The notes under the pieces were generated by a model. The model had not been told where the DNA came from. It saw nothing but the letters and a program-made list of their open reading frames with translations, and made no database searches. The translations under genes and the position numbers were made by a program. DNA of 64,000 nucleotides from Nocardiopsis mwathae (GTDB lineage Bacteria > Actinomycetota > Actinomycetes > Streptosporangiales > Streptosporangiaceae): positions 3,844,001 through 3,908,000 of the forward strand of contig NZ_JACHDS010000001.1 in assembly GCF_014201195.1 (NCBI RefSeq), read 5' to 3'. Below are positions 6,170-22,296 of the stretch, piece by piece; position 1 is the stretch's first letter, and each line of letters opens with the position of its first letter.

Positions 6170-7054
6170 GTGAGTACACCTCGGTTTCTGGACCTCCCGC
6201 CTGGTGTCCGACGGATCGACGTCCCGACGGCCCTCGGCCCGATCGCCGCACTGCACGCCATGCCCACGGCCGGGGGCACCGACCGCCAGACCGCTGTGCT
6301 GGTACCGGGGTACACCGGCAGCAAAGAGGACTTCATCGCGCTGCTGCAGACGCTGGCGCAGGCCGGGCGGTCCGTACTCGCCATCGACATGCCCGGCCAG
6401 TACGAGTCCCCTGGCCCCGCCGACCCCGCCTCCTACACCCGCGAAGGGCTGGGGCGGGCCGTCGCCGAGCTGGTCCGCGCCCTCGATGAGGGCCCGGTAC
6501 ACCTGCTCGGGCACTCCTTCGGCGGGCTCGTGACGCGCGAGACGGTGCTGGCCGGCGACGTTCCGCTGCTGAGCCTCACCCTGATGAGCTCGGGGCCCTC
6601 GGCCATCAGCGGGCTGCCCGCGGCCGACGCCCAGCGCCTGAAGGCCGCACTGGAGGACTCCCCCACGCGCGACCGCCTCCGCCGGATCTGGGAGGAGCAC
6701 CTGGACCGGCCTGCGCGCTCCAGCGGCATCAGCGAGGAGATCCACGCGTTCCTCCGCGCCCGTATGCTCGCCAACCACCCCGAGGGCCTGGTGCGGATGG
6801 CCGGGGCTCTCCTGGACGCCCCCGACCGCTGCGCCGAGCTGAACCGGCTGACCCTGCCGAAGCTGGTGATATACGGCGAGAACGACGATGTGTGGCCCAC
6901 CGACGTCCAGGCCGACATGGCCCGGCGTATCGGCGCCCGCCGCGTGGTCATCCCCGGCGCCTGCCACTCCCCCAACGTCGAGGCGCCGGAGACCACGGCC
7001 AGCGCTCTCACCCGCTTCTGGCACGGCGCCGAGACCCCGGGCCGCGCCGACTGA
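6170..7054 (+). CDS. Alpha/beta-hydrolase
   Basis: This 294-residue soluble alpha/beta-hydrolase has the nucleophile elbow GHSFGG at about residues 120-125 (Ser122). An acidic residue lies in YGENDDVW near 232-239, and a late His is in GACHSPN near 263-269, so the triad order Ser-Asp-His is complete. The oxyanion strand VLVPGYTGS is at about 43-51. The length fits esterases and lipases of this superfamily. The substrate cannot be told. The GTG start at 6170 follows AAGG about eight bases upstream. The gene ends just before a perfect 31-bp inverted repeat that probably terminates it. Confidence 0.85.
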   Translation: MSTPRFLDLPPGVRRIDVPTALGPIAALHAMPTAGGTDRQTAVLVPGYTGSKEDFIALLQTLAQAGRSVLAIDMPGQYESPGPADPASYTREGLGRAVAELVRALDEGPVHLLGHSFGGLVTRETVLAGDVPLLSLTLMSSGPSAISGLPAADAQRLKAALEDSPTRDRLRRIWEEHLDRPARSSGISEEIHAFLRARMLANHPEGLVRMAGALLDAPDRCAELNRLTLPKLVIYGENDDVWPTDVQADMARRIGARRVVIPGACHSPNVEAPETTASALTRFWHGAETPGRAD

Positions 7055-7067
7055 CCCCGTCTCTCCG

Positions 7068-7145
7068 CCTCTTGCGTCGATCTCGGGGATATCGGGGTGA
7101 TGATCACGCGCGGTACCCCGATATCCCCGAGATCGACGCAAGAGG
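7068..7145. repeat. Perfect inverted repeat (31-bp arms), family member 1
   Basis: The arms at 7068-7098 and 7115-7145 are exact reverse complements around a 16-base loop. The outer arm contains GTCGATCTCGG, shared with three other inverted repeats in the window (29988, 52593, 62525). The inner arm GATATCGGGGT is shared only with the 62525 copy. It lies 14 bases after the hydrolase stop and abuts a truncated copy of the MITE-like element. A very strong hairpin without a T tract is a plausible intrinsic terminator in actinobacteria. Confidence 0.9.
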
Positions 7146-7286
7146 TTCGGTGACCGAGCGGCCGTCCGGGCGGCGCTCGCACGCCGCTTCACGAAGTCGA
7201 GTCAGGTCGGCTTGACGAGTGAAGCGGCGCGGCGAGCGTCGTTCCGGTGGCCGTGAGCCGGGAATGATCCGCCGAACACGCCCTAA
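7146..7286 (-). repeat. MITE-like element, copy B (left end lost)
   Basis: This stretch aligns over almost its whole length with the reverse complement of the complete copy at 16991-17148. It shares for example GAGCGGCCGTCCGGG, GCCGCTTCACGAAGTC and CGAGCGTCGTTCCGGTGGCC. The right end keeps the terminal repeat (ATCCGCCGAACACGCC) followed by CTAA, and that CTA is the stop codon of the minus-strand gene to the right. About 25 bases of the left terminal repeat are missing and are replaced by the arm of the inverted repeat at 7068-7145. The strand is arbitrary and only marks opposite orientation to copy A. Confidence 0.8.
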
Positions 7287-8305
7287 ACCCAGGTCTCGAA
7301 GTTCTTGCTCTCGGCCGCGACCGTGGTCTCGGGGCCGCGGTCGGGGAGGATGCGGGTGTCCGGCGGGAGGGACATCAGGACCTCGCCGACCGAGTGGAGC
7401 TGGCGGGTGTAGTCGACGTAGCCCTCGCCGACGGTGCCCAGTTCCCCCTTGCGCAGGGTGTCGCCGCTGAACACGGCGCCGAGCTCGGAGATGTAGTAGG
7501 CGACGCTCCCGGTCGAGGTACCGGGCAGCGGGAGGATGTCGATCTCCTTGTCGCCGGCCTGCAGCGAGCCGCCGCCCTCCACTTCGAGGTCGGGGCGGTG
7601 TTCGGCGCCGTGCACGCGGCGCCAGGGGCGGATCTCGCGGCGGTGCAGCGCGATCGGGGCCTGGTCGCGCTCGGCCACCTCCACGGCCGCACCGATGTGG
7701 GTGTTGTAGCCGTTGGTGCAGGCGACGAGGTAGATCTCACGCTCGCCGACGGCCTCCAGGACGGCCTTGGCATCGTGCGCCGGGTCGATCACGACGACGC
7801 CCTCGTCGTCGACGTCGACGATCCAGGTGTTGCTGACGACGTCGTACTCTTCACCGTCGACCTTCAGGACGCCGGCCGTGCGGACACGCTGGATGCCGTC
7901 CGAGTCGGGCTCGTCGGTGCCGGGGACCTCGGGCTCGCGCTCCTCCTCGGTCGCCCCCTCCGCCTTCGCCTCGGCCTTCTCGCCCGCCTCGGCCTCCCCG
8001 GCTTCCTCGGCCTTCGCCTCCGCATCGGTCTCCCCGGCCTTGGCGGGCTTCTCGGCGTCGGCGTCGGTGGCGGCGTCGGTGGCGGCGGGCGTCTCCTCGG
8101 CCGCCACAGCGGTGGCCGCCGTGTCCGCGCCCTTGTCCTCGGCGGACTGCGGCTCGTCGCGGGGCCCGTCAGCGTCGTCGGCGCCGTCGGCCGTCACCGT
8201 CGAGGGCGTCGTGCCGCCGGCCTCGGCCTCCTCGACGTCCTTCTTCTTGTTCTTCCGATTCCAGAACACGGTGCCGACCCTTCGCTTCGCTGGTTGGGAA
8301 CTCAT
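7283..8305 (-). CDS. Metallo-beta-lactamase-fold protein lacking metal ligands
   Basis: This 340-residue protein has two parts. Residues 1-135 are a low-complexity, strongly acidic Ala/Glu-rich region after a short basic start (RNKKK). Residues 140-340 follow the metallo-beta-lactamase fold in order (NTWIVD, VVIDPAHD, the loop at 197-203, PGTSTGS, FSGDTL, LPDRGPETT). The family's T-H-x-H-x-D-H loop reads T-N-G-Y-N-T-H at 197-203, so two His and the Asp are lost. The later ligand His of PGHTxGS is Thr263, and the last one, normally GHGPET, is Arg323. Only His203 and Asp282 remain. A binuclear zinc hydrolase is therefore unlikely. A binding or structural role is inferred. Its stop codon is supplied by the end of the repeat element. 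Confidence 0.8.
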   Translation of the reverse strand: MSSQPAKRRVGTVFWNRKNKKKDVEEAEAGGTTPSTVTADGADDADGPRDEPQSAEDKGADTAATAVAAEETPAATDAATDADAEKPAKAGETDAEAKAEEAGEAEAGEKAEAKAEGATEEEREPEVPGTDEPDSDGIQRVRTAGVLKVDGEEYDVVSNTWIVDVDDEGVVVIDPAHDAKAVLEAVGEREIYLVACTNGYNTHIGAAVEVAERDQAPIALHRREIRPWRRVHGAEHRPDLEVEGGGSLQAGDKEIDILPLPGTSTGSVAYYISELGAVFSGDTLRKGELGTVGEGYVDYTRQLHSVGEVLMSLPPDTRILPDRGPETTVAAESKNFETWV

Positions 8306-8458
8306 CGCAAAAGTTGCGCGGGACCATTGTTCCGGCCCTGCGGTGCGGTCGGGTACCCCCTCCGCACGGCCGGTGAGGATCCCACACCGACGCTAAACGG
8401 CCGATAAGACGCGGCGGTCCCGCTTCGGCCGGTCATCATGCCACGTCAGGCCGGGATT

Positions 8459-9358
8459 CTAGCCCCTCGGTCCGATGATGGGCGCCGCTCCGGTGGCGGG
8501 GGCGACCAGCTCCTCGTAGGCGGCCGGATCCGTCGTGCGGGCCCCGAGCCGGTGCCCGGTCAGTTCGCCGTGGTCGTCGCTGGACCCGGTGACCACCAGC
8601 CCGAGCCGGCCGGCGACCGCGCGCCAGTGCTCGGCCTCGGCCTCGTCATGCGCGGGATGGTCCGCCTCGATTCCGCCGAGTCCCGCCCGGGCCATCTCCG
8701 CCACGACCTCTTCGGGGACCGCACCGGTCAGGGCTCCCTCACCCCGCGCGGGGTGGGCGAGCACGCACACCCCGCCCGCCGCCCGCACCAGTCGGACCGC
8801 GCGCACCGGGTCCAGGGCGTAGCGGGCCGCGTAGGCGGGGCCGCCGGAGCCGATCCAGCGGTCGAACGCGTCCTGCACGTCCTCGGCGGCGCCGGCCTCC
8901 ACGATGGCCCGGGCGATGTGCGGGCGCCCGACGACGACGTCGCCGGGCGCGGCACGGCCGACACCGGTTCCCGGCTCCAGGCCGTGGGCGATCTCCCGGA
9001 CCCGCTGCCAGGTCACCTCGACACCGGCCGCACGCAGCAGCCGGACCATGGTCTCGGCTCGATCGGTGCGGTCGCGGCGGATCCGCCGCAGCTCCTCGGT
9101 CAGCTCGGGGTGGTCGGCGTCGAAGAGGTAGGCCAGCAGGTGGACGCTGGCGCCCCGATAGGCGCAGGACAGCTCCATACCGGGGACGAGGGTGAAGCCC
9201 GGCGGCACGTGCGCGGCGGCCGCGGACAGCCCGGCGACCGTGTCGTGGTCGGTGAGCGCGAGCACGTCGAGCCCCGCCGCGACAGCGCGGCCCACGACCT
9301 TCTCGGGGGGCTCGGTGCCGTCGGAGACAGAGCTGTGCGAATGCAGGTCGATGCGCAT
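8459..9358 (-). CDS. PHP-domain phosphoesterase (TrpH/RNase AM-like)
   Basis: This is a 299-residue PHP-family metal-dependent phosphoesterase. The N-terminus shows the first metal motif HSHS (residues 6-9 of MRIDLHSHS) and the second, TDHDT, at about 36-40. Further ligands follow in GMELSC (Glu), LAHP (His) and SSDDHG (Asp/His). This pattern matches TrpH-like proteins, whose E. coli member removes nucleotides from the 5' ends of RNA and 3',5'-bisphosphonucleotides. The start at ATG 9358 is the Met directly before IDLHSHS; the longer frame adds ten unlikely residues. It is followed downstream on the same strand by the MBL-fold gene. Confidence 0.85.
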   Translation of the reverse strand: MRIDLHSHSSVSDGTEPPEKVVGRAVAAGLDVLALTDHDTVAGLSAAAAHVPPGFTLVPGMELSCAYRGASVHLLAYLFDADHPELTEELRRIRRDRTDRAETMVRLLRAAGVEVTWQRVREIAHGLEPGTGVGRAAPGDVVVGRPHIARAIVEAGAAEDVQDAFDRWIGSGGPAYAARYALDPVRAVRLVRAAGGVCVLAHPARGEGALTGAVPEEVVAEMARAGLGGIEADHPAHDEAEAEHWRAVAGRLGLVVTGSSDDHGELTGHRLGARTTDPAAYEELVAPATGAAPIIGPRG

Positions 9359-9407
9359 CACCCGACGATACAGGGGACATCTCCGCACGGGAGGGGGCGG
9401 CTCCCCG

Positions 9408-10061
9408 TCAGTCCATCGGCCGCAGCGCGGAGGCGAGGAAGGGCGAGGGCGCCCCGAACGGCAGCTGCCGGGACAGGCCGCCCTGGTGGTCCCGGAGGTC
9501 GATGACCGCCTTCAGCTCGCAGATCTGCACGCCGACGTCGGCCGGGTTGAACACGATCCACATCCAGCAGCTGTTGGCCTCCCCGGCGTAGACCGCGCGC
9601 TCCGTGCCACCGTCGACGCTCCACAGGGCGATTTCGTGCCCGTCGTGGCGGATCTTGGCGTCCGGCGGACCGGCATCGAACCCGCTGCCCGGGTCGGAGC
9701 CGTCGAACCCGGCCAGGCGCGCGCCCAGCCCGATGCCCGGGTCCTCGGCGACGATGGCCATCTCGCCGACACCGCCGAGCGGGGCGGGGCCGGAGAGCGC
9801 GACCGCGATACCGAGTGCCCCACTGCGGTCGTCACCCGCCTCGGCGAAGCCCGTGACGACCCACCCGGCCGGCAGCGGCCAGGGCATCCATACGGGGACC
9901 TCCGCGGACTTGACCAGCAGGTCGACCGTGGAGTCGCCGAGGGGGCGGATCCGGCGCAATGGTGCGACGGGGCCGTGCGCGTCGCACAGCCACGCGCTCG
10001 TCCACACGTTCGGCGGATGGATGGCACGGCCGCACCGAGGGCAGGATGGATCCGTTCTCAT
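9408..10061 (-). CDS. DUF6758-type protein with zinc-ribbon N-terminus
   Basis: This 217-residue protein begins with a zinc-ribbon-like motif, CPRCG at residues 7-11 and CDAHG about 20 residues later. An all-beta-looking domain rich in Gly, Asp and Trp follows (VWMPWPLPAGWVVTGFAEAGDD, in part). From memory it is the actinobacterial DUF6758 family, which in Streptomyces sits beside a PHP gene as it does here. No catalytic residues are evident. ATG at 10061 fixes the Cys motif at the N-terminus; no strong ribosome-binding site is seen. It precedes the PHP gene on the same strand with a 49-base gap and may be co-transcribed. Confidence 0.7.
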   Translation of the reverse strand: MRTDPSCPRCGRAIHPPNVWTSAWLCDAHGPVAPLRRIRPLGDSTVDLLVKSAEVPVWMPWPLPAGWVVTGFAEAGDDRSGALGIAVALSGPAPLGGVGEMAIVAEDPGIGLGARLAGFDGSDPGSGFDAGPPDAKIRHDGHEIALWSVDGGTERAVYAGEANSCWMWIVFNPADVGVQICELKAVIDLRDHQGGLSRQLPFGAPSPFLASALRPMD

Positions 10062-10148
10062 GGCTGGTGGGAGAGATACCCCGGTGGCCGGTACGGAAAC
10101 TCCCGGCGCCCAGGGCACAGGCGTCCCCCGCGCCCCGGGCCTCCTGGG

Positions 10149-10228
10149 ACGTGTTCGGCGGATGCTCTCGGGTGAGCGAGCCGCGTTCCGGCGGCCGGGG
10201 GTGAGGATTCGGTACGCCGTACCCCCTA
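10149..10228 (-). repeat. MITE-like element, short internally deleted copy D
   Basis: The left part, GTGTTCGGCGGATGCTCTCG at 10151-10170 followed by GGTGAGCGAGC, matches the left end of the complete element (read as the reverse complement of 16991-17148). The right part, GTTCCGGCGGCC to GAGGATTCGG, matches its right end. The roughly 80-base centre is missing. The right end runs into CTA at 10226-10228, the stop codon of the minus-strand protease gene. Confidence 0.6.
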
Positions 10229-11554
10229 CGGCGTACCGGGGTCGGCGGGCGGCGGGTGGGCGTGCCCGCCCATGGTGCCCTGAGAGCCGGACAGCCCCGC
10301 TGCTCCGGGGGTGCCGCGGCCGCCGAGACCGGGGGCGGGGCCGCCCGGCCGGGGCCGGAGAGGCCGGCTCGGGGCGGGTCCCCGGGGCGGAGCGCCCGGC
10401 AGGGATTCCGCGGCGTCGCCGGGCGCGGTGCGCCGGATGCCCAGTCGGCGCACCAGCCACACCACGACGAGGATGAACAGGCCGACCTCCACGGCCGTAC
10501 CGACCACGCCCTCCCACGACCCGGGGCCACGGGCGGCGGCGTCGAGCGTCCCCTCGTAGGCGCTGATGGAGAAGACCAGCATGTTGTGCAGCACGTGCAG
10601 CGCGATCGCCGCCTCCAGCCCGCCGGTGTACCAGGTCAGCCAGGCCAGCCCGGCGCCGAGGAGGGCGACGTTGACCAGCCCCCAGCCGGTGTACTCGTGC
10701 AGGGAGGTGAAGACCGCGGTGGTGATGATGATGCCGAGGACGGGTGTGCGCAGGAACGCCGCCCACGCCCCGTCGCCGCGCCGCTCGCCGGGCTCGGCGC
10801 CGTAGCCGCCGACCAGCTGCAGCAGGAAGCCGCGCAGCGCGAACTCCTCGGCCGAGGCTTGGAACGGGACCAGCAGCACGATCGCCACCAGGGCGGGGAT
10901 GAACGCGGCTCCCCCGCCGAAGTCGGCGACGAACGCCTCGCCGGGGGCGGTCAGCCGCTGCAGGACGTACAGCGCGGCGGTGAACACCGCCAGCACCGGG
11001 AGGGCGGCCAGCATGCACACGAGCAGCCAGCGCCAGCGCATCCGCCCTTCGACCGAGATCAGCGTGCCGACCGGCCGCCGCTGGATCAGCCGCACCGCCA
11101 GCATCACCACCGGCGTCATCAGGGAGATGGTGACCAGCAGGAACACCAGGTCGGGGACGGTGGCGCCGAGCGGCGACTCGGGGCTGAAGCGGTGCCCGTG
11201 GAGCGCCGCGATGATGGCGGCCGCGACGCCCATGATGGTCTGCACGAGCAGGTAGAGCGCGGCCGCGAAGATGAACGCCACGATCGGGATCCACCAGCGG
11301 TGCCGCCAGGTGTGCCCCATCCGGTGGTAGGCGCTGCCGGGCCGGGGCAGCGCCGGGCCCGACGGCCGGGGCGGTCGGCACCGCTCCGCCGGTGGCGGCC
11401 ATGCCCAGGCCTGGGCGGGCTGGGCACTGGCCGCCGGAGTCCCGGGCGGCCATGCCCACGCCTGTTCGTCCGGGTTCGCTGACGTCTCCCGTCCGCCGGA
11501 CTGCCGCGGATCGGGCTGCCAGGACGAACCAGGCGGTGGCGGCGTATTTCTCAT
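10226..11554 (-). CDS. CPBP-family intramembrane metalloprotease
   Basis: This 442-residue membrane protein of the CPBP (CAAX protease and bacteriocin-processing) family has the diagnostic motif EEFALR (residues about 243-248) in a transmembrane helix. The downstream His motifs are HEYTG and HVLHN. Around eight hydrophobic segments lie between residues 88 and 390. The N-terminal 75 residues are a proline-rich cytoplasmic region with two copies of QAWAWPP. The C-terminal 60 residues are Gly/Pro-rich. Family members cleave membrane substrates or prenylated-type termini; the substrate here is unknown. No ribosome-binding site precedes ATG 11554, so the transcript may be leaderless. Confidence 0.85.
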   Translation of the reverse strand: MRNTPPPPGSSWQPDPRQSGGRETSANPDEQAWAWPPGTPAASAQPAQAWAWPPPAERCRPPRPSGPALPRPGSAYHRMGHTWRHRWWIPIVAFIFAAALYLLVQTIMGVAAAIIAALHGHRFSPESPLGATVPDLVFLLVTISLMTPVVMLAVRLIQRRPVGTLISVEGRMRWRWLLVCMLAALPVLAVFTAALYVLQRLTAPGEAFVADFGGGAAFIPALVAIVLLVPFQASAEEFALRGFLLQLVGGYGAEPGERRGDGAWAAFLRTPVLGIIITTAVFTSLHEYTGWGLVNVALLGAGLAWLTWYTGGLEAAIALHVLHNMLVFSISAYEGTLDAAARGPGSWEGVVGTAVEVGLFILVVVWLVRRLGIRRTAPGDAAESLPGAPPRGPAPSRPLRPRPGGPAPGLGGRGTPGAAGLSGSQGTMGGHAHPPPADPGTP

Positions 11555-11618
11555 CGTCTGCCGAGATTACTATCCGCCCGTGTATCGGCGGCGTTAAGGA
11601 CGCAGGGCGATCGATCGG

Positions 11619-12590
11619 CTACTCACCGATGCCTCCGTCGTGCCCGTGTCCGGCGCCCCGCCCGGCCGTGTCCGCCATCAGCCGCCGTAGGTGCGTCAGC
11701 TTGTCCGGGTTGCGGACCATCAGCACCTCGGTGATGGCGCCGTCGGTGACCTCCACCAGGGCGACGGCCTCCACGTGGCCCTCCGCGTCGCGGAAGACGA
11801 TGCCCGGCGCGCCGTTGACCTCGGCCCAGGCCACCAGCCACCGTTGCTCCTGGAACCGGGGGCCGATCCCGGCCATGAAGCGGGCGCACCGGTCGGCGCC
11901 GAACAGCGGGCGGACCGCCGCCGCGGCCTTGCCACCGCCGTCGGTGAGGACGATGGCGTCCGCCGCGAGCAGCTCCTTCAGCCCGGCCACGTCACCCTCC
12001 GAGCAGGCGGCCAGGAACCGTTCGGTCAGGCGGCGCCGCTCGTCGGGCCCCGCGGTGTGGCGGGGGCGGCGGGCGTGCACGTGCTCCCGCGCCCGGTGGG
12101 CGAGCTGGCGCACGGCCGCCTCCGACTTGCCGACGGCCTCGGCGATCTCGGCGTGCGGCACCCCGAACACCTCGCGCAGTACGAACACGGCACGCTCGAC
12201 CGGGTTCAGCGTCTCCAGGACCACCAGCATCGCGTAGGAGACCTCGTCGGCCCGCTCCACCTCGTCGGCGACGTCGGGCGCGGTGACCAGCGGCTCGGGC
12301 AGCCACGGGCCGACGTAGGACTCGCGCCGGCTGCGCGCCGCGCGCAGCCGGTTGAGGCTGAGGTTGGCGGTGATCCGGACCAGGTAGCCCTTCGGGTCGG
12401 CCACATCGGACCGGTCACCCCCGGTCCAGCGGATCCACGCCTCCTGTACGCAGTCCTCCGCGTCGGCGACGCTGCCCAGCATGTCGTAGGCGACGGTGAA
12501 CAGCAGCCGCCGGTAGCGCTCGAAGACCGCGGTGCCGTCGGTGCCGTCGGTGCCGTCGGCCCTCCGCTCGGCCGAGTCGACCGTGTTCAC
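11619..12590 (-). CDS. ECF41-group sigma factor with SnoaL-like C-terminal domain
   Basis: This 323-residue sigma factor has region 2 at about residues 22-90 and region 4 at about 117-170 (IAEAVGKSEAAVRQLAHRA). A SnoaL-like C-terminal extension occupies about 187-305. Three ECF41 signatures are visible: the linker YVGPWLPEP (92-100), DGGGK (217-221) and NPDKL (294-298). In this group the extension modulates sigma activity instead of a separate anti-sigma factor. The gene overlaps the upstream carboxymuconolactone-decarboxylase-like gene in GTGA (12587-12590), the classical ECF41 pairing, which implies translational coupling. AGGAGG lies seven bases before the GTG start. The N-terminus has a short DGT tandem repeat. 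Confidence 0.9.
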   Translation of the reverse strand: MNTVDSAERRADGTDGTDGTAVFERYRRLLFTVAYDMLGSVADAEDCVQEAWIRWTGGDRSDVADPKGYLVRITANLSLNRLRAARSRRESYVGPWLPEPLVTAPDVADEVERADEVSYAMLVVLETLNPVERAVFVLREVFGVPHAEIAEAVGKSEAAVRQLAHRAREHVHARRPRHTAGPDERRRLTERFLAACSEGDVAGLKELLAADAIVLTDGGGKAAAAVRPLFGADRCARFMAGIGPRFQEQRWLVAWAEVNGAPGIVFRDAEGHVEAVALVEVTDGAITEVLMVRNPDKLTHLRRLMADTAGRGAGHGHDGGIGE

Positions 12591-13168
12591 GCCTGTTCCT
12601 CCTGTCGTGCGTGCGGTACCGCCTGCGCCACCTCGCAGGTGTCCGTGAACCCCTGGCTGGTGAGCCCGAGGGCGTGGTTGAACCGCGACCTCCGGTTCTC
12701 CACGGCGACGATCGCGGTCAGCTCGACCAGTGCGGCCTCGCCCAGTTCGGCGAGCAGCTCGGCGACCATCGCGTCGGTGGTCTCCATCGGGTCGGCGCTC
12801 ATCGCCTCCGCGTACTCCATCACCCGCCGCTCCAGCGGGCCGAACAGGTCGCTGTCGCGCCACTGCGGGACCGCGCGCAGCTTGGCGGGGTCGAGGCCCC
12901 GGTGGGTGTGCTCCCAGTAGCCGAAGTCCATGCACCAGGAGCAGCCGATGCGCGCCGCCGACGCGGTGACCGCGAGCGCCTTGAGCGTCGGATCGAGGCG
13001 CTTCCACGTCGCCACACCCGTCTCGTTCAGGAGATCGGTGACGAGGACCCGCCCGTTGTGCGCCATGGCCTTCCCCGGGTCGGGGACCATGCCGAAGCGG
13101 CGCCGGGCCAGGGGCATCAGCAGGCGGTTGAGCAGGGTTCGGGGCGGTTCCAGTGAGATGCGGGCCAT
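12587..13168 (-). CDS. Carboxymuconolactone decarboxylase/AhpD-like protein, ECF41 partner
   Basis: This 193-residue helical protein of the CMD/AhpD superfamily carries the redox-type motif CSWCMDFGYWEH (C-x2-C plus a downstream His), the relay site of AhpD-like peroxide-reducing proteins. It is the typical regulated partner (COE-type gene) of ECF41 sigma factors and lies directly upstream of one. ATG at 13168 has AAGGAAGG just upstream. A match to the ECF41 promoter (TGTCACG, 16 bases, GGTC) lies at 13215-13241, so the pair is probably autoregulated. The function is likely in oxidative or aldehyde stress; the substrate is not known. Confidence 0.85.
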   Translation of the reverse strand: MARISLEPPRTLLNRLLMPLARRRFGMVPDPGKAMAHNGRVLVTDLLNETGVATWKRLDPTLKALAVTASAARIGCSWCMDFGYWEHTHRGLDPAKLRAVPQWRDSDLFGPLERRVMEYAEAMSADPMETTDAMVAELLAELGEAALVELTAIVAVENRRSRFNHALGLTSQGFTDTCEVAQAVPHARQEEQA

Positions 13169-13214
13169 GACGGCCTTCCTTTCCCTCCGCGTTCTCCGAT
13201 GATTCCCCCATAGA

Positions 13215-13241
13215 GACCCGCGGCCCCCCGCAGACGTGACA
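13215..13241 (-). promoter_or_regulatory. Candidate ECF41-type promoter
   Basis: On the minus strand TGTCACG (13241-13235) is followed after 16 bases by GGTC (13218-13215). The consensus I recall for ECF41 targets is TGTCACA and CGTC, so this site matches six of seven and three of four bases. Transcription would start near 13208, about 40 bases before the CMD-like gene. This fits autoregulation of the two-gene unit. Confidence 0.5.
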
Positions 13242-13361
13242 GGGCTGGGAAAGAAGAATCGCCGGAGATCCGGGAATACGCCTGTGACCTGGGGGAACGC
13301 GTTTTCCGGCGAGGCGTGCCCGCTGGTGTGTGCACGCGCAGGCTTCACTACCATGGAGTAC

Positions 13362-14501
13362 ATGTCCTCCACACCCACCACCGAGCAGGTGCACGCGGCC
13401 CTGGCGACCGTCCAGGACCCCGAGATCCGTCGTCCCATCACCGACCTCGACATGGTCAAGAGTGTCGAGATCGCCGACGGCGGCGTCGTGAACGTCGGCA
13501 TCTACCTCACGGTGGCCGGTTGTCCCATGAAGGGGCGGATCGAGAAGGACGTCACCGAGGCCGTCTCCACGGTCGACGGCGTCACCGCGGTGCGGGTCGA
13601 ACTCGACGTCATGAGCGACGAGCAGCGCAAGGCGCTGCAGACCAAGCTGCGCGGCGGGCAGGCCGAGAAGGAGATCCCCTTCGCCAAGCCGAACTCGCTG
13701 ACCAAGGTCTTCGCGGTCGCTTCCGGCAAGGGCGGTGTGGGCAAGTCCTCGGTGACCGTGAACCTCGCCGCCGCTCTGGCGGAGCAGGGCCACAAGGTGG
13801 GCGTGGTCGACGCCGACATCTACGGCCACTCGGTGCCGCGCATGCTGGGTGTGTCCGAGCACCCGACCAAGGTCGAGGACATGATCATGCCGCCGTCGGC
13901 GCATGACATCAAGGTCATCTCCGTGGGCATGTTCACCCAGGGCAACCAGCCGGTGGTGTGGCGCGGCCCGATGCTGCACCGCGCGCTCCAGCAGTTCCTC
14001 GCCGACGTGTTCTGGGGCGACCTGGACGTGCTGCTGATGGACCTGCCCCCGGGCACCGGCGACATCGCGATCTCCGTGGCCCAGCTGCTGCCGAACGCCG
14101 AGATCCTCGTCGTGACCACGCCGCAGCAGGCCGCGGCCGAGGTCGCCGAGCGCGCCGGCGCGATCTCCGCGCAGACCCACCAGCGTGTGGCGGGTGTCAT
14201 CGAGAACATGTCGTACTTCGTGGCCCCCGGCAGTGACGAGCGCACCTACCTCTTCGGCGAGGGCGGCGGCCGGACGGTCGCCGAGGGCCTCACCCGGTCG
14301 CTGGGCGCCCAGGTGCCGCTGCTCGGCCAGGTCCCGCTCGACATGCGGATGCGCGAGGGCGGCGACGAGGGCGAGCCGCTGGTGCTGACCGACCCCGAAT
14401 CCGAGGCCGGCGGCGTGCTCCGCCGGATCGCCGAGGACCTGGTCGGCAAGCCGCGCGGGCTGTCCGGCATGCAGCTGGGCATCACCCCGGCCGGCCGCTG
14501 A
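13362..14501 (+). CDS. mrp: Mrp/NBP35 family Fe-S cluster carrier ATPase
   Basis: This 379-residue protein has an N-terminal MIP18/DUF59 domain (about 5-90, with EIRRPITDLDMV and AGCPMK) fused to a ParA-like P-loop ATPase. The deviant Walker A GKGGVGKSS is at about 122-130. DADIYGHSVPRML follows, and DLPPGTGD is the Walker B region. Mrp proteins bind and transfer Fe-S clusters. The usual C-x2-C pair near the C-terminus is not evident, as in other actinobacterial members. Two in-frame ATGs are possible, at 13353 and 13362; neither has a good ribosome-binding site. I take 13362 because homologues begin close to the DUF59 domain. It is followed two bases later by the deaminase gene. Confidence 0.88.
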   Translation: MSSTPTTEQVHAALATVQDPEIRRPITDLDMVKSVEIADGGVVNVGIYLTVAGCPMKGRIEKDVTEAVSTVDGVTAVRVELDVMSDEQRKALQTKLRGGQAEKEIPFAKPNSLTKVFAVASGKGGVGKSSVTVNLAAALAEQGHKVGVVDADIYGHSVPRMLGVSEHPTKVEDMIMPPSAHDIKVISVGMFTQGNQPVVWRGPMLHRALQQFLADVFWGDLDVLLMDLPPGTGDIAISVAQLLPNAEILVVTTPQQAAAEVAERAGAISAQTHQRVAGVIENMSYFVAPGSDERTYLFGEGGGRTVAEGLTRSLGAQVPLLGQVPLDMRMREGGDEGEPLVLTDPESEAGGVLRRIAEDLVGKPRGLSGMQLGITPAGR

Positions 14502-14503
14502 CC

Positions 14504-14995
14504 ATGACCGGAACCGACACCCGGAGCACCGCTGCCACTGCGCGCTACCGCGACTGGCTGCGGATCGCCGTCGAGGAGGCCGAGGCCGGACTCGCGGAGG
14601 GCGGTATCCCCATCGGGGCCGCGCTGATCGGCCGCGACGGCAGGGTGCTGGGACGCGGCCGCAACCGCAGGGTGCAGGACGGCGATCCGTCCGTGCACGG
14701 CGAGACCGCGGCGTTCCGCAACGCCGGTCGGCAGCGCTCCTATGCCGGGACGACGATGGTGACCACGCTGTCGCCGTGCTGGTACTGCAGCGGCCTGGTG
14801 CGGCAGTTCGGCATCTCCCGCGTGGTCATCGGCGAGTCCACCACGTTCACCGGGGGCCACGACTGGCTGGCCGAGCACGGGGTGGAGGTCGTCGTCATCG
14901 ACGACCCGCGCTGCGTGGAGCTGATGACCGGCTTCATCGCGGCCCACCCCGAGCTGTGGCACGAGGACATCGGCGAGGACGGCACCGGGGCCTGA
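14504..14995 (+). CDS. Cytosine deaminase, fungal (FCY1) type
   Basis: This 163-residue zinc deaminase has the site HGE (His65, Glu67; most members have HAE) and PCWYC (Cys92, Cys95). The C-terminal half closely follows yeast cytosine deaminase: VVIGE, VEVVVIDDPRC, and the terminal W-x-EDIGE motif (152-158), which in yeast caps the active site. Its closest functional model is therefore cytosine-to-uracil deamination in pyrimidine salvage. TadA or guanine deaminase lack that tail. The ATG lies two bases after the mrp stop, so translation is probably coupled, although I know no functional link. A 22-bp hairpin follows. Confidence 0.8.
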   Translation: MTGTDTRSTAATARYRDWLRIAVEEAEAGLAEGGIPIGAALIGRDGRVLGRGRNRRVQDGDPSVHGETAAFRNAGRQRSYAGTTMVTTLSPCWYCSGLVRQFGISRVVIGESTTFTGGHDWLAEHGVEVVVIDDPRCVELMTGFIAAHPELWHEDIGEDGTGA

Positions 14996-15001
14996 GCACG
15001 G

Positions 15002-15049
15002 CCCCGCCCCGTGCGCCGACCTCGGGAGAGGTCGGCGCACGGGGCGGGG
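15002..15049. terminator. 22-bp perfect hairpin with GGGA loop
   Basis: The arms 15002-15023 and 15028-15049 are exact complements closed by a four-base loop GGGA, which fits the GNRA class. It lies between the convergent cytosine deaminase and HtrA genes and would serve both strands. There is no T tract, as is common in actinobacteria. Confidence 0.8.
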
Positions 15050-15056
15050 AGACCGG

Positions 15057-16817
<1,761 letters not shown>

Positions 16818-16986
16818 GAATTCTCCGTGTTGTCGCTGCCGCCTCCATTGTGGGGCGACCGACATAAGCCGTTGGTTAACAGACCCTCGGTGGGATGTGC
16901 CTACTGGCGCACCTTACGCCCCCACCGGGGCATTCGTACTCTTGGTGGTGTCGGCCGGTGGTCGACGCTCAGGTAACCTGTGCCAC

Positions 16987-17152
16987 CTAGGGCGTGTTTG
17001 ACGGATCATTCCCGGCTCGCGGCCACCGGAACGACGCTCGCCGCGCCGCTCCACTCGTGAAGCCGACCTGGATTGACTTCGTGAAGCGGCTTGCGAGCGC
17101 CGCCCCGGACGGCCGCTCGCTCACCGGAAAGCATCCGCCAAACACGCCCTAG
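16987..17152. mobile_element. Complete MITE-like element, copy A, flanked by CTAG
   Basis: A 158-bp core (16991-17148) is bounded by imperfect 16-bp terminal inverted repeats, GGCGTGTTTGACGGAT at the left and the complement of GGCGTGTTTGGCGGAT at the right. Identical CTAG tetranucleotides lie outside at 16987-16990 and 17149-17152. A four-base YTAR target duplication is the rule for IS5-group transposases, so this is probably a non-autonomous derivative of such an element. No transposase is coded. The right CTAG supplies the TAG stop of the RseB-like gene. Three further copies lie at 7146, 10149 and 20609. Confidence 0.75.
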
Positions 17153-18198
17153 GCGCCCGGCCAGGAGCCGATCCGCTCGAACCCGCGCGCCACCCGGGAC
17201 CAGAACCCGCTCCCGTCCGGGCCCGGAAGGCCCCCGACCGCCGCCGCGACCGTCTCCTCGGGGGCGTCGGCCAGCACGGTGAAGACGAATCCGTCGGCTT
17301 CCCAGACACGGCGCCGCTGCCCCGCGTCATCGACGAGGACGGTGCCGCCCCCCTCTACGACGGCGGTCAGCCCGTCCCCGGTTCCCCCCGATTCGTGATC
17401 GAGCCGCCCACGCTGGACGAACACGGACACCACCGACAGCCCATCGGAATAGGACAGGTGCAGGACCCGGTCCTCGGCCTCGCCCTTCGACCACACCTCG
17501 ATCAGCCGGAGATCCCAGTCCAGGTGGTCGGGCACGGGCCAGCCGTCCCCGCGCGGCTCCTCGCCCGAGGCGACGGCGGTCCACGGCCACGCGTGGTGCG
17601 CCGACATGGGGGCGGCGTCCGCGCCGACATCGGTCCGGAATTCGGTGAACTCGGTGGAGTGGGCGATCCGCCCGGCCGCGTCACGGACTTCCCGGCGCAG
17701 CGGCAGCCCGGTGGTGTCGTCGATCCAGAAGCGCCCGGCGACCGTGTCGTTGGCGCGCCGCGCCTCCACGACGGTCGCCGCCCGGCCGCAGATGGTGCCG
17801 CTTCCGGCGCGGGTGACCCGGTAGTTGTCGGCCAGGGCGCGCAGCAGCTTGCCGTCCATCTCCAGCAGGGTCGACGAGGGCGCCACCACCACGGGCGCGG
17901 CCCCGGTCGTGCCGGGCGGGCCGCCGTACTCGGTGCCGCTTCCCGCCCGGTGCACCACCTGGACGACGCGGGTCTCCGCCTCGGGGCCGGTCCCGGAGGT
18001 CACCGCCTGGACGCCCGCGTAGGAGGTCTCGTGGGCCGCCTTGGCCGCGCGGCGCAGCCACGCCATCCCGTCATCGTCACCGTCCGGTGGCGCCTGCCCC
18101 GCCCGGGACGACGAGGCGGCGGTCACCGGCACCAGGATCAGCAGCGCCAGCAGGACCAGCACAAGGGCCGGAGGGCGCCATCGGTCCTCGCCGCTCAC
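17149..18198 (-). CDS. RseB/MucB-like sigma-E regulatory protein
   Basis: This 349-residue exported protein has a signal or anchor segment at residues 10-28 (PALVLVLLALLILVPVTAA). A RseB-type lipoprotein-fold domain follows, beginning WLRRAAKAAHETSYAGVQAV, with later strands such as FWIDDTTGLPLRREV. RseB proteins bind the periplasmic part of the anti-sigma factor and gate its proteolysis. The GTG start overlaps the TGA of the anti-sigma gene in GTGA (18195-18198), so translation is coupled. The gene is third in sigE, anti-sigma, rseB. The stop codon lies in the flank of the inserted repeat, so the original C-terminus may have been altered. Confidence 0.8.
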   Translation of the reverse strand: MSGEDRWRPPALVLVLLALLILVPVTAASSSRAGQAPPDGDDDGMAWLRRAAKAAHETSYAGVQAVTSGTGPEAETRVVQVVHRAGSGTEYGGPPGTTGAAPVVVAPSSTLLEMDGKLLRALADNYRVTRAGSGTICGRAATVVEARRANDTVAGRFWIDDTTGLPLRREVRDAAGRIAHSTEFTEFRTDVGADAAPMSAHHAWPWTAVASGEEPRGDGWPVPDHLDWDLRLIEVWSKGEAEDRVLHLSYSDGLSVVSVFVQRGRLDHESGGTGDGLTAVVEGGGTVLVDDAGQRRRVWEADGFVFTVLADAPEETVAAAVGGLPGPDGSGFWSRVARGFERIGSWPGA

Positions 18199-18926
18199 CG
18201 GGGCCGGGGCGCATCAGGTCCGGGGGCGTCGGGCGCGGGGCCGCTCACCGGAGCGCGGACGACCGCATCGACGCCGGCCGGGGTGGAGGCCGGCGCGGGA
18301 GCGGTGGCCCCGGGGAGCGCCCCCTGGCGGGCGGTGACCGCGTGTTCGACCGCGAAGTCCTCCAGCGCGGGCCTGACGACCGGAGCCGGCTGCTCGTCGC
18401 CCCCCGCGACGAAGGCCGTCCCCAGGGTCAGCGCGACCACGGAGACGCCGGCGACGGCGAAGCGCGCGCCCGGCCACCCCGGGCGCAGGACCGACAGCGG
18501 CTCGGCACCGCGCCGTCTGCGCAGCTCCCGCAGGGCGGAGGAGGCAGAGGGCGCGGGAGCGGGTCCGGTGGTCGCACCGAGCGCGCCGGATGCCGGGGAG
18601 GGCAGCGGGTCCGCGCCGAGCGGGGCGCGGCTACCCAGCGGCCGACTGAGGACGCCGGGGCCGCCTCCGGGGGTCGTGCCCCCGAGCGGCGGCCCCGCGG
18701 GTGGTTCCGCGGGCGGCGGTCCGTTCAGTGCGGACAGGCGCCCCATGAAGTCGGTGGAGGGCGCGGGTTCGTCGAGCCCGTGCAGGCGCCGCTTGAGTCG
18801 GCGCATCATCTCGGCCTCGAAGCGGCAGGACTCGCAGGAGGCCAGATGGATCAGCGCGCGGTCGCGCTCGGCCTCCCCCAGTTCGCCGTCGACGAGAGCT
18901 GACAGCCGTTCCCCCAAGTGGTCCAT
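18195..18926 (-). CDS. ZAS-type anti-sigma factor (RseA-like)
   Basis: This 243-residue membrane-bound anti-sigma factor begins with a zinc-associated domain with His28, Cys31 and Cys34 (HLASCESC), which holds the cognate ECF sigma. A Pro-rich linker at about 65-135 leads to one membrane helix at about 163-183 (FAVAGVSVVALTLGTAFVA) and a short extracytoplasmic tail. ATG 18926 follows GGAG within the 3' end of sigE, only four bases after its stop. It should release SigE on regulated proteolysis when the envelope is damaged. The order sigma, anti-sigma, RseB is conserved in actinobacteria. Confidence 0.88.
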   Translation of the reverse strand: MDHLGERLSALVDGELGEAERDRALIHLASCESCRFEAEMMRRLKRRLHGLDEPAPSTDFMGRLSALNGPPPAEPPAGPPLGGTTPGGGPGVLSRPLGSRAPLGADPLPSPASGALGATTGPAPAPSASSALRELRRRRGAEPLSVLRPGWPGARFAVAGVSVVALTLGTAFVAGGDEQPAPVVRPALEDFAVEHAVTARQGALPGATAPAPASTPAGVDAVVRAPVSGPAPDAPGPDAPRPR

Positions 18927-18930
18927 TTGT

Positions 18931-19542
18931 TCACTCCACCTCCCGGCCCCAGCCATGAGCCTGTGTCACGTTCGCGTGGGCGGCGCCTTCCTCGGCGGCG
19001 ATGCGCTTGCGGTGCTCCAGTGCCTTGCGCAGCTGGGCGCGGCCGCGGTGGATGCGGCTGCGCACGGTCCCCAGCTTGACCCCGAGGGTGGCGGCGATCT
19101 CCTCGTAGGAGAGGCCTTCGATGTCGCACAGCACCACGGGCGCCCGGAACTCGGCGGGAAGCGCGTCGAGGGCGCCCTGGATGTCGGCGTCGAAGTGCTT
19201 GTCGTCATACGACTGGGCCGGTGAGGGTTCCCGGCCTTGGAGGCGCTCGTCGGCGTTCTCGGCGAGACCTTCGAAGCGGATACGCGCCTTGCGGCGTGCC
19301 ATGTCGAGGAAGAGGTTGGTGGTGATGCGGTGCAGCCAACCCTCGAAGGTCCCGGGGGTGTAGTTCGCCAGGGAGCGGAAAACGCGGATGAAGACCTCCT
19401 GGGTGAGGTCTTCGGCGTCGTGCTGGTTGCCGGTCAGGCGGAAGGCGAGGCGGTACACGCGTGCCGAGTGGTTCCGCACCACCTCGTCCCAGCTGGGCGG
19501 CTCCCATTGCTCGAAATCCACAGCAGAGTCGGAGCCTGCCAC
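18931..19542 (-). CDS. sigE: ECF sigma factor SigE, envelope stress
   Basis: This 203-residue ECF sigma factor has region 2 at about residues 20-90 ([17 protein letters not shown]) and region 4 at about 118-175 ([24 protein letters not shown]). It resembles mycobacterial SigE and its Streptomyces counterparts, which direct responses to cell-wall and surface stress. The GTG start at 19542 has AGGGGG upstream. A SigE-type promoter (GGAAC, 18 bases, CGTTG) lies about 130 bases upstream, so it probably activates its own transcription. It is first gene of the unit with anti-sigma and RseB-like proteins. Confidence 0.9.
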
Positions 19543-19671
19543 CGGCTACCCCCTATCTTCGGCGCGATCCCGTCGGCGCGGCGTCCCCGTCCGGCCGCGT
19601 CAGCGATCGGCCGGATCGCCCGGATCGCCCGGACGGTCCGTCGGCGTCCGCGAGGACCCTTCACCCGATTG

Positions 19672-19699
19672 CAACGCCGCGCGGCGGCAATTAAGTTCC
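19672..19699 (-). promoter_or_regulatory. SigE-type autoregulatory promoter
   Basis: On the minus strand GGAAC (19699-19695) and CGTTG (19676-19672) are separated by 18 bases. The mycobacterial SigE consensus I recall, GGRMC-N18/19-SGTTG, is matched in full. Transcription would start near 19665, giving a leader of about 120 bases before sigE. Confidence 0.65.
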
Positions 19700-19939
19700 C
19701 TCGGCCCCGTACCGCTTGCGTACGGGCTAGTCTTTGCCCAGGAACATCGTCTCACCGTAATCACATGACGACACTGAGTGACGATCGCGGTGGTCGCGTT
19801 CCGCATTCCACACCGGAAACTCTCCTAGCCGGGCCGTGCCGCCCCGTCCCGACACGACTGAGCGCCCCCGCACCCTCCCCACCGCGGGGTCCGCCCGGCG
19901 AGCAGCCGTCATGTCCGTATCCATGCGCGGGAGGCCGCC

Positions 19940-20581
19940 ATCGCCAGCCGAGACGACACACTCGCTTACATCGATTCCTACGTCACCGAGGACGACGCCC
20001 TGTCCTCGGCCCGCGAGGCCGGGAGCCGCACGGACGCGCGCCCGATCAGCGCCGCCGGCGGAGCCTGTCTGCGCTTCCTGGCCACCGCGATCGGCGCTCG
20101 CGCGGTCGTGGAAGTGGGCACGGGGTGCGGGAGCTCCGGGATCTGGCTGCTGCGCGGCATGCGGCCGGACGCCATTCTCACCACCGTGGACGTGGACCCC
20201 GAATACCAGGAGATGGCCCGGGCCGCCTTCCGGAGGGCCGGGTTCCCCGCCAACCGCGCCCGGCTGATCCAGGGGCGCGCCATGGACGTGCTGCCCCGGC
20301 TCACCGACGGCGCCTACGACATGGTCTTCGTCGACGCGGCCAAGGAGGAGTACCCGCGTTTCCTCACCGAGGCGCTGCGCCTGCTGCGGGTCGGCGGGAT
20401 CGTGGTGTTCAACAACGGGCTGGAGGCGGCGCCCGTCCCCGACGGACCGCTGAGCGTGCCCGGGGCCCAGCGGTCCGTGCGCGAGGTCGGCCGCCTGATC
20501 AGGGAGGACGAGAGCCTGGTCCCGCTGCTGCTCCCGGTCGGCGAAGGCCTCCTCGCGGCGATCCGCGAGGAGGCCTCCTGA
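19940..20581 (+). CDS. O-methyltransferase (class I SAM-dependent), apparent ATC start
   Basis: This O-methyltransferase of the catechol/caffeoyl-CoA type has the SAM loop VVEVGTGCGSSGIWLLRGM, the acidic residue in TTVDVDPEY, and motif FVDAAKEEY. It corresponds to mycobacterial Rv1220c-like proteins found beside sigE. Homology begins at about residue 5 (DDTLAYIDSYVTEDDAL), but no ATG, GTG or TTG occurs in this frame between the stop at 19859-19861 and GTG 20108. That GTG is inside the SAM-binding site. ATC at 19940 has GGGAGG at 19929-19934 with a five-base gap. Either ATC is used or a base is wrong there. With this start the protein has 213 residues, normal for the family. It is divergent from sigE. 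Confidence 0.8.
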   Translation: MASRDDTLAYIDSYVTEDDALSSAREAGSRTDARPISAAGGACLRFLATAIGARAVVEVGTGCGSSGIWLLRGMRPDAILTTVDVDPEYQEMARAAFRRAGFPANRARLIQGRAMDVLPRLTDGAYDMVFVDAAKEEYPRFLTEALRLLRVGGIVVFNNGLEAAPVPDGPLSVPGAQRSVREVGRLIREDESLVPLLLPVGEGLLAAIREEAS

Positions 20582-20608
20582 AGCGTGTCCGGTTCCGCGG
20601 CGACGGCG

Positions 20609-20763
20609 GCGTGTTCGGCGGGAGCTCTCCGGTCGGCGATCGGCCGTCCGGGGCGGCACCCGCGGGCCGCGCCCCGACGTCGATCCTCGGCCGGACGGGC
20701 GGAGCGGCGCAGCGAGCGCCGCTCGGGTGGCCGCGAGTGAGGATCCGACCGGCCGGACACGCG
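20609..20763 (-). repeat. MITE-like element, diverged copy C
   Basis: This matches the reverse complement of copy A along its length, with landmarks GCGTGTTCGGCGG, CGGCCGTCCGGGGCGGC, GGAGCGGCGC and GGTGGCCGCGAG. The terminal repeats are degenerate. It fills the gap between the O-methyltransferase stop and pepA, and its right end directly precedes TTA (20764-20766), the stop codon of pepA on the minus strand. Confidence 0.65.
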
Positions 20764-22296
20764 TTACGGCATGGCCGTCAGCCAGTGCAGCAGCAGCCGC
20801 GTGGAGAAGCCGGTGCCGCCCTTGGTGATGGGACCGTCGTCTCCGGTGGCACGGCCCGGCCCGGCGACGTCGAGGTGCGCCCACGGCAGGCCGCCGGAGA
20901 ACTCCCGCAGGAACAGCGCCGCCTCCGTGGCACCGGGGTGGCCGTAGTCCTTGCTCGTGCCGATGTTGGCCAGGTCCGCCACGGTCGAGTCGAGCGTGTC
21001 GCGGTACTCCTCCACCAGCGGCATCCGCCACACCGGTTCCCCGGAGGTGCGGCCCGCGGCTTCGAGCGCCTCGGCCAGCGCGTCGTCGGAGCTGAACAGC
21101 GCGCCGGTCTGGGTTCCCAGCGCCACCTTCGCCGCCCCGGTCAGGGTGGCCACGTCGACGATGGTGTCGGGAGCCAGCCCCGCGACGGCGTAGGCCATGG
21201 CGTCGGCCATCACCAGCCGACCCTCGGCGTCGGTGTTGAGCACCTCGACGGTGCGCCCGTCGTAGGTGGTGATCACGTCGCCGGGACGCTGCGCCGAGCC
21301 CGAGACGGAGTTCTCCGCCAGCGGGATCAGGCCGGTGACGCGCACCCGCGCCCCCAGGTCCCCGAGGGCCGACAGCACGCCCAGCACGATCGCCGACCCG
21401 CTCATGTCGGTCTTCATGAGCACCATGTTGTCGGTCGGCTTGATCTGCAGACCGCCGGTGTCGAACGTGATGCCCTTACCGACGAGGACGACGTGCGAGG
21501 TCGGGTTCTCGGGCCGGTAGTCGAGCCTCACCAGCCGCGGCGGCCGGGCCGAGCCCTGCCCCACGGCGACGATCGCGCCGAAGCCCTCGCGCTCCAGCCG
21601 CTCCTCGTCCCACACCTCGACGTCCAGGCCGGCCTCGGCACCGATCTCCTCGGCGCGCCCGGCGAGCCACTCCGGGTCCTTCTCCAGCGAGGGCATGTTG
21701 ATCAGGTCGCGGGCCAGAGCGGTGGCCCGGGCCAGCGCCGTGCCGCGCCGCACCGGCTCGGCGGCGGCGCCGTCATCCGCCACGAGGTCGATGGCACCGA
21801 CGGGCCGCGGCCCCTTGTCGGCCGACTTCATGGTGAACGTGTAGGAGGCCAGCAGCGCCCCCTCGGTGAACGCGGACAGCGCGGCCGCGCGGCCGGACGC
21901 GTCATCGGCGCCGCTCCGGCCCTCCTGGACCAGGGACGGGGCCGCGACGGCGGCGCGCTCGCGCCCCTTGGCCAGGCGGGCCAGAGCGGCACCCGCCGTC
22001 CGGAGGTCGTCGGGCGAGGACGCGCCGACGCCGAGCAGGGCCAGCCGGACCAGCCCGCCGCCGAGGTCGGCCGCCAGGGAGGCCGTCTCACCGGGCTTCC
22101 CGGTGAGTTCGTAGTGCGCGATCAGGTCGGCCAGTGGGGCCGGAAGCCGCGCGTCGAACTCCTCCGGGGAGTGGCCCGTCCCGGCGGTGACCGCGACGGG
22201 GCCGTCGTCACCGGAGCGGACGGGTACCGCCACCACGTCGGCGGCGGAGTCGGCGAGGCCGCCCGGGACCGGGCGGATCTCCGTAGCGAAAGGCAC
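20764..22296 (-). CDS. pepA: Leucyl aminopeptidase (M17)
   Basis: This 510-residue cytosolic aminopeptidase removes N-terminal residues, with leucine preferred, using two metal ions. The M17 signatures are present: the metal Lys/Asp segment GKGITFDTGG, DMSGSA, and the hallmark NTDAEGRL with the catalytic Arg. The N-terminal 180 residues are the poorly conserved macro-domain-like part. The GTG start at 22296 gives normal length. The stop is contributed by sequence next to repeat copy C. It lies downstream of the DUF3117 gene, 53 bases apart on the same strand. Confidence 0.93.
   Translation of the reverse strand: MPFATEIRPVPGGLADSAADVVAVPVRSGDDGPVAVTAGTGHSPEEFDARLPAPLADLIAHYELTGKPGETASLAADLGGGLVRLALLGVGASSPDDLRTAGAALARLAKGRERAAVAAPSLVQEGRSGADDASGRAAALSAFTEGALLASYTFTMKSADKGPRPVGAIDLVADDGAAAEPVRRGTALARATALARDLINMPSLEKDPEWLAGRAEEIGAEAGLDVEVWDEERLEREGFGAIVAVGQGSARPPRLVRLDYRPENPTSHVVLVGKGITFDTGGLQIKPTDNMVLMKTDMSGSAIVLGVLSALGDLGARVRVTGLIPLAENSVSGSAQRPGDVITTYDGRTVEVLNTDAEGRLVMADAMAYAVAGLAPDTIVDVATLTGAAKVALGTQTGALFSSDDALAEALEAAGRTSGEPVWRMPLVEEYRDTLDSTVADLANIGTSKDYGHPGATEAALFLREFSGGLPWAHLDVAGPGRATGDDGPITKGGTGFSTRLLLHWLTAMP

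Follow-up and report, generated by a model that had tools for sequence, protein, structure and literature searches.

MITEs that combine terminal repeats, a TA at each end, and a long stem-loop have been described before in bacteria, and stable stem-loops with regulatory effects are known in other bacterial MITEs (available part of PMC2229807). In the same part of that source, an IS630-family partner is proposed for the RUP of pneumococcus, and the Correia/NEMIS elements of Neisseria are described with terminal repeats with a terminal TA, a stable stem-loop in the transcript, and cleavage by RNase III. IS630-family elements duplicate TA (available part of PMC2170065), and a preference of IS630 for CTAG is indicated there by the title of a reference.

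The elements described here, from Nocardiopsis mwathae and its relatives, resemble RUP in being small non-autonomous hairpins with TA targets and ends shared with an IS, but the shared ends are of the IS5 type, whereas the proposed RUP partner is an IS630 (available part of PMC2229807), and the IS630 found here is a guest at the MITE ends. The likeness to Correia/NEMIS lies in the TA-terminated repeats and the stem-loop, while the sequence and the host are different and the RNase III cleavage is reported for Correia/NEMIS (available part of PMC2229807). IS5 elements of the DUF4096 type (Pfam PF13340; NCBIfam NF033580, transpos_IS5_3) share with the MITE the flanks C-TA and TA-G or TA-A and, in one genome (G147), an identical end of 20 bases; the MITE differs from them in lacking a transposase gene and in a core unlike the IS interiors seen. 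These DUF4096-type elements presumably belong to the IS427 subgroup. No title listed in the literature searches was recognised as this MITE family, which as far as searched is a known kind of element and new as a family.

The window is the whole 64-kb stretch that was analysed (G000:C1:3844001-3908000), part of a 5.94-Mb genome in two contigs (G000). The focal copy reads CTAG-GGCGTGTTTGACGGAT...ATCCGCCAAACACGCC-CTAG at 16987-17152, with CTAG at both borders (16987-16990 and 17149-17152). Its ends are alike at 16 of 17 positions (one mismatch; GGGCGTGTTTGACGGAT against the reversed GGGCGTGTTTGGCGGAT), in agreement with the sequence-only reading of a MITE-like element with inverted ends. That reading gave a length of 158 bp, which becomes 160 bp (16990-17149) if TA is the duplicated target, and there is no transposase gene inside, the length being too small for one. 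The family profile, built with the focal and other copies of the same genome, matches here at E = 3.9e-54 with the window as the search space, far past chance. The focal copy is confirmed as a young, complete MITE copy and the observation is real. The features of the locus, and the further copies in the window, are as follows.

16987-17152, plus strand: complete MITE copy including both flanking CTAG (sequence, copy search, profile, and the empty site in the sister genome G001).
16988-16989, no strand: putative target duplication on the left, the TA within CTAG (sequence; TA preferred over CTAG from unequal flanks).
16990-17006, plus strand: left terminal inverted repeat GGGCGTGTTTGACGGAT, which with the TA and one more base equals the G147 IS end over 20 bases.
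17007-17132, no strand: core, predicted to fold together with the ends as one long hairpin (folding, alignment).
17133-17149, minus strand: right terminal inverted repeat, GGGCGTGTTTGGCGGAT on the minus strand (sequence).
17150-17151, no strand: putative target duplication on the right, the TA within CTAG (sequence; unequal flanks elsewhere).
17149-18198, minus strand: neighbouring gene, with a TAG stop (17151-17149) made of the target TA and the terminal G of the element.
7146-7285, minus strand: truncated MITE copy, model positions 2-142 (profile, E = 7.5e-37).
10145-10190, minus strand: 46-bp remnant of a MITE end (profile, E = 4e-5; unseen in the aligned G001 stretch).
20608-20747, minus strand: old, diverged MITE copy, model positions 16-162 (profile, E = 2.3e-18; absent from G001).

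The three additional window copies that had been pointed out from the letters all exist, but the one placed at 10149-10228 is reduced to the remnant at 10145-10190 and is the weakest of the three, since the profile covers only 46 bp of it at E = 4e-5. Beside the truncated copy, a second and unrelated palindrome of ~64 bp occupies window positions 7075-7138 and has >20 relatives in the sister genome. Across the genome, the BLASTN-type check that had been proposed returned many dispersed copies. Among the best 40 of 138 first-look candidates scored there were at least 25 near-full-length copies, 21 of them with identity ≥95%, and at least nine further long copies that were diverged or truncated; short forms of ~64-108 bp also occur. 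Two short forms of 68 bp (3233102 and 1367440) have a common junction that falls in a direct repeat, and they leave a mobile coreless element unproven. In one place (G000:C1 1420079-1420407; L012 and L014), two MITEs stand in tandem with one CTAG common to both, as though the end of one had been the insertion site of the other.

Homologues (E ≤1e-6) were present in at least 34 of 341 genomes of the family and 10 of 68 genera, a lower bound with two candidates scored per genome. Carriers include Nocardiopsis suaedae, N. listeri, N. trehalosi, N. chromatogenes, the MAG of Candidatus N. merdipullorum, Murinocardiopsis flavida, a strain labelled Glycomyces fuscus, and the MAG DX1.bin85. In two genomes, some copies keep the same arms but enclose another inner hairpin, CCCCTACTGYGC...GCRCAGCGGGGGC or one like it (L071, L072, and L083 in G009; L086 and L089 in G011), and these altered copies may hold a nested palindrome or an exchanged core.

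A sister genome of the same genus (G001) aligns to both sides of the focal copy without the element. When the element is removed and one CTAG kept, 74 gap-free columns remain, of which 56 are identical, and the CTAG of the focal site corresponds to CGGA in the sister; the empty orthologous site that had been proposed as a check is present. The copy at 20608 is absent from the sister genome too, the 7146 position is occupied there by other sequence, and the 10145 remnant was not seen in a stretch that aligns poorly. Insertion in the N. mwathae lineage is the preferred reading of the focal copy, with precise loss in the sister as the alternative for the one pair compared. Together, the 21 copies at ≥95% identity and the empty orthologous site show recent movement.

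The target was explored in a table of 68 near-complete or short two-ended copies from several genomes. CTAG is found on both sides of 42 copies, while the left end reads TTA in 8 (7 TTAG and 1 TTAA), the matching right-hand base being C, not T, in all 8. Among the MITEs, all of these exceptions are on the left side, and the same non-CTAG word on both flanks was seen in none of the 68 copies. For the IS5-type element of the sister genome, 2 of 6 inspected copies are bordered by C-TA at one end and by TA-A at the opposite end. Because of these unequal flanks, the comparison suggests that TA rather than CTAG is duplicated (2 bp), inside a C/TTAG or CTAA target, the alternative being that one flank mutated. 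The CTAG duplication described from the focal copy thus stands as regards the CTAG on both flanks, but the duplicated unit is better read as TA inside C/TTAG.

The ends of the MITE point to a partner. A search of the 341 genomes of the family with the pattern GGGCGTGTTTNNNGGATCTTGAG (≤2 mismatches) gave matches in 18 genomes, some of them other than IS ends and several of them the ends of elements of ~940-980 bp. Among the proteins tested, the OrfAs of G150 and G167 scored above the Pfam cut-off for DUF4096, as did the visible beginning of the G147 OrfA; the two full OrfAs are also above the NCBIfam cut-off as IS5 family (transpos_IS5_3), with the G147 OrfA fragment and OrfB below it. The OrfB of G150 matches DDE_Tnp_1 and DDE_Tnp_1_2. 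In G147, which appears to be the Nocardiopsis listeri MAG CHK138-4570, the IS end TAGGGCGTGTTTGACGGATC agrees with the left end of the MITE at all 20 of 20 bases, and the OrfA start lies next to it, in an IS known from its first ~240 bases up to the contig end, with the other IS end off the contig. The MITE copy of G147 itself ends in TTCCGCGGA, unlike the G147 IS. In the sister genome, the MITE ends share 12-base stretches (GTGTTTTTCGAA and TGTTTTTTGAAT) with both ends of a multicopy IS5-type element, and the outermost bases differ between the two. In G009, apparently Nocardiopsis suaedae LSu2-4, TAGGGCGTGTTTCTTGGATC is common to three short MITE forms and to an IS-like end that appears at six contig ends, and the full-length MITEs carry TTTCTCGGA, one base off that end, of which ~50 bases are visible and which may belong to a transposase-encoding element. 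Exact or near matching of MITE and IS ends was found in two of the three genomes where both were seen, neither of them perfect, consistent with MITE ends that partly follow the local IS. Another short element, ~165 bp long, was observed in two other genomes (L121 in G287 and L129 in G280). Its ends are of this kind too (TAGGGCGTGTTTTGTGGATC or TAGGGCGTGTTTTATGGATC), but most of its core differs, and it may represent a distinct MITE family within that IS5 group.

In the N. mwathae genome itself, a profile search gave no DUF4096 match, tblastn gave no OrfA match, and no complete IS of the DUF4096 type was detected. One OrfB fragment is present at 5660794 (E = 2e-6), with a weak IS5 match under the NCBIfam cut-off and no clear matching ends beside it, and an IS5 element of about the DUF4096 type probably once lived in this genome. 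After the decayed fragment (L232 1286-1900; G000:C1 ~5660.6-5661.2 kb) comes TGTTTGACGGAT, which agrees with the MITE end over 12 bases but in an unexpected orientation. A DDE_Tnp_4 transposase at 2158095 was rejected as the partner, as no matching ends lie nearby. Neither an IS5-type nor an IS630 match was found inside the window, in line with the statement that the window holds no transposase, and with the exception of the decayed fragment the partner IS is missing genome-wide. The MITE core shows no resemblance to the IS interiors seen.

Given the paired inverted ends, the dispersed and near-identical copies, the empty site, and the end shared with an IS5 element of a relative, the element is very probably a non-autonomous MITE for which a DUF4096-type transposase of the IS5 family (NCBIfam transpos_IS5_3) provides mobility in trans. 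Movement by an IS5-type transposase and IS5-group elements with the same ends, the latter found in relatives as in the 20-base match of G147, had both been anticipated from the focal copy, and both are supported to this extent. In the proposed mechanism, the IS5 transposase would bind the MITE ends and the 160-bp unit would be inserted into the TA within C/TTAG with duplication of the TA, the source IS having been lost from the genome or having acted from outside. The spread of a REP-type repeat by a RAYT (Y1) transposase would account for a palindrome that lies mostly between genes; it is barely credible for an element that is 160 bp long, when REP palindromes measure 20-40 bp, and that has terminal repeats in a pair, TA on its flanks, and an end matching an IS5 element.

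A second transposable element is closely associated with the MITE. A 1138-bp IS630-family element has at least 8 full copies at 100% identity in the N. mwathae genome (among the best 40 of 243 candidates scored), and seven of the 8 adjoin a MITE, with one CTAG serving both elements, whereas the remaining copy is in a plain CTAG.

IS630 copies at MITE-terminal CTAGs (G000:C1): L003, L004, L007, L008, L009, L011, and L020; eighth copy, L169.

The chance of at least 7 IS630 copies falling on MITE ends is ~7e-9, taking ~1,200 other CTAG sites (extrapolated from the 13 in the window) and an estimated ~65 on MITEs. Each of the two IS ends is met next to each of the two MITE ends (four combinations), and the flanks on the far side are not alike, so that the IS630 copies are read as separate insertions and a composite IS630-MITE unit was rejected. 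The transposase ORF of the IS630 also receives a TAG stop codon from its target. As causes of the association, structure, sequence beside the CTAG, and permissive loci are candidates. These observations bear on a rival view in which the IS630-family transposase of this genome mobilises the MITE, along the lines of the proposal for the RUP of pneumococcus. This has in its favour that precedent (available part of PMC2229807), the use by IS630 of the TA in CTAG (CTAG preference, from a reference title in the available part of PMC2170065), and the seven of 8 full copies that adjoin a MITE, but the IS630 ends (GTGTCCTGATTGGTT) are unlike the MITE ends (GGGCGTGTTTGACGG), whereas the IS5-type end is identical over 20 bases; the four end combinations look like IS630 inserting into MITE ends; and the IS630 was not found in the sister genome among the best 40 of 212 candidates, yet the MITE is present there. 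IS630 as the mobiliser was rejected on the dissimilar ends and is a very unlikely explanation compared with the IS5-type transposase.

The target word of the proposed IS5-type movement also places the element relative to genes, as called with a simple GC3 caller rather than taken from annotation. CTAG is rare in the window (15 observed against 160 expected from base composition), and of the 13 CTAGs outside the MITE, 7 serve called genes as stop codons, 6 are intergenic, and 0 lie inside a gene; in other loci of the genome (n = 40), 8 are stop codons, 23 lie between genes, and 9 lie inside genes. As the element starts with G, which is added to the target TA, a TAG results at each junction. For genes other than the IS630 transposase, the TAG stop consists of the target TA and the terminal G of the element in 21 of 47 copies (11 of 27 in N. 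mwathae, 4 of 7 in N. suaedae, and 6 of 13 in other species, from given loci numbering 10 for N. suaedae and 17 for other species, with duplicate, incomplete, and low-scoring copies dropped), in agreement with the prediction from the CTAG sequence. Stop-codon seeking beyond the target word was not supported: 12 of the 27 N. mwathae copies (the 11 with TAG and L024, ending in TAA) compare with 15 of 53 other CTAG sites of this genome, an excess that is not significant (Fisher p = 0.21), and the target word therefore explains the stop-codon placement. At the focal site, the sister counterpart of the gene at 17149-18198 runs some codons on to a TGA, and the TAG stop probably preceded the insertion, since the target needs CTAG. 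Insertion would thus re-form TAG at both junctions and would usually be harmless, because CTAG is rare, is found largely at stop codons or between genes, and meets an element that begins with G.

Both strands of the focal copy are predicted to fold as a full-length hairpin (-94 and -126 kcal/mol as RNA). When 18 copies drawn from several species were aligned, the 56 pairs of the structure were intact in 95.8% of cells compared to 85.2% in shuffles, two-sided changes occur at 23 of the 56 pairs, and the observed covariation score was reached by 0 of 500 shuffles, with the structure taken from the same alignment as tested and with related copies inflating the covariation counts. Pairing fell to 36-43% when partners were slid by 1-3 columns. 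One of the five covariation measures, the number of further pair types, was not exceptional (49 vs 47.9 in shuffles; 198 of 500). As judged from these alignments, the element is one long hairpin with pairing kept by compensatory changes across species. Non-Watson-Crick cells in 37 copies comprise 162 G-U, 30 A-C, and 108 others on the modelled strand, a bias that is smaller when counted by columns (28 G-U vs 17 A-C), and the G-U excess may reflect selection on a folded RNA or a single strand. An Rfam search over window positions 6800-21500 (E up to 1) gave four sub-threshold miRNA look-alikes, none of them in a MITE.

The pairing kept by compensatory changes, the regulatory stem-loops of other bacterial MITEs (available part of PMC2229807), and the orientation of neighbouring genes (≤200 nt), with the 3' end toward the element 43 times and the 5' end 18 times (p = 0.002), would suit an element that is mainly a host-domesticated hairpin, such as a terminator or mRNA-processing site, under selection and with its mobility long past. 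Such a history is highly improbable given the recent movement indicated by the 21 copies at ≥95% and the empty orthologous site, the position of the element, which is explained by where CTAG occurs, and the transcribed strand, which shows no bias (23 to 20); this lack of bias among neighbouring genes also led to the rejection of a sense-strand 3'-UTR role. A more limited form of selection on a mobile IS5-type MITE is doubtful, though less so. The core hairpin may be the selected part (as folded RNA or ssDNA), with replaceable ends that track the available IS5 transposase and are also IS630 landing sites. Counted for this are the G-U excess over A-C (162 vs 30) and the contrast between the N. 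mwathae (25 copies) and sister (2 copies) consensus sequences, which differ at 7 of 126 core positions and 9 of 28 end positions (p = 3e-4), the reverse of the expectation for a passive MITE. Against it stand three other genome pairs without the contrast (p = 0.79, 0.45, and 0.61), on which ends evolving faster than the core were rejected as a general rule, the column counts of only 28 to 17, and the lack of strand preference.

Overall, the MITE of N. mwathae belongs to an actinobacterial family that is well sampled, has an empty site, and has relatives in which the type of partner transposase can be identified. Three features are of interest to specialists: the hairpin that covaries over its full length, the target that preserves TAG, and the strong tendency of IS630 to be found at the MITE ends. 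A C-TA-G target combined with ends that begin with G would re-form TAG stops and offers a simple logic of harmless insertion, and if true in general this logic would cover many IS5-type and IS630 elements that use CTAG.
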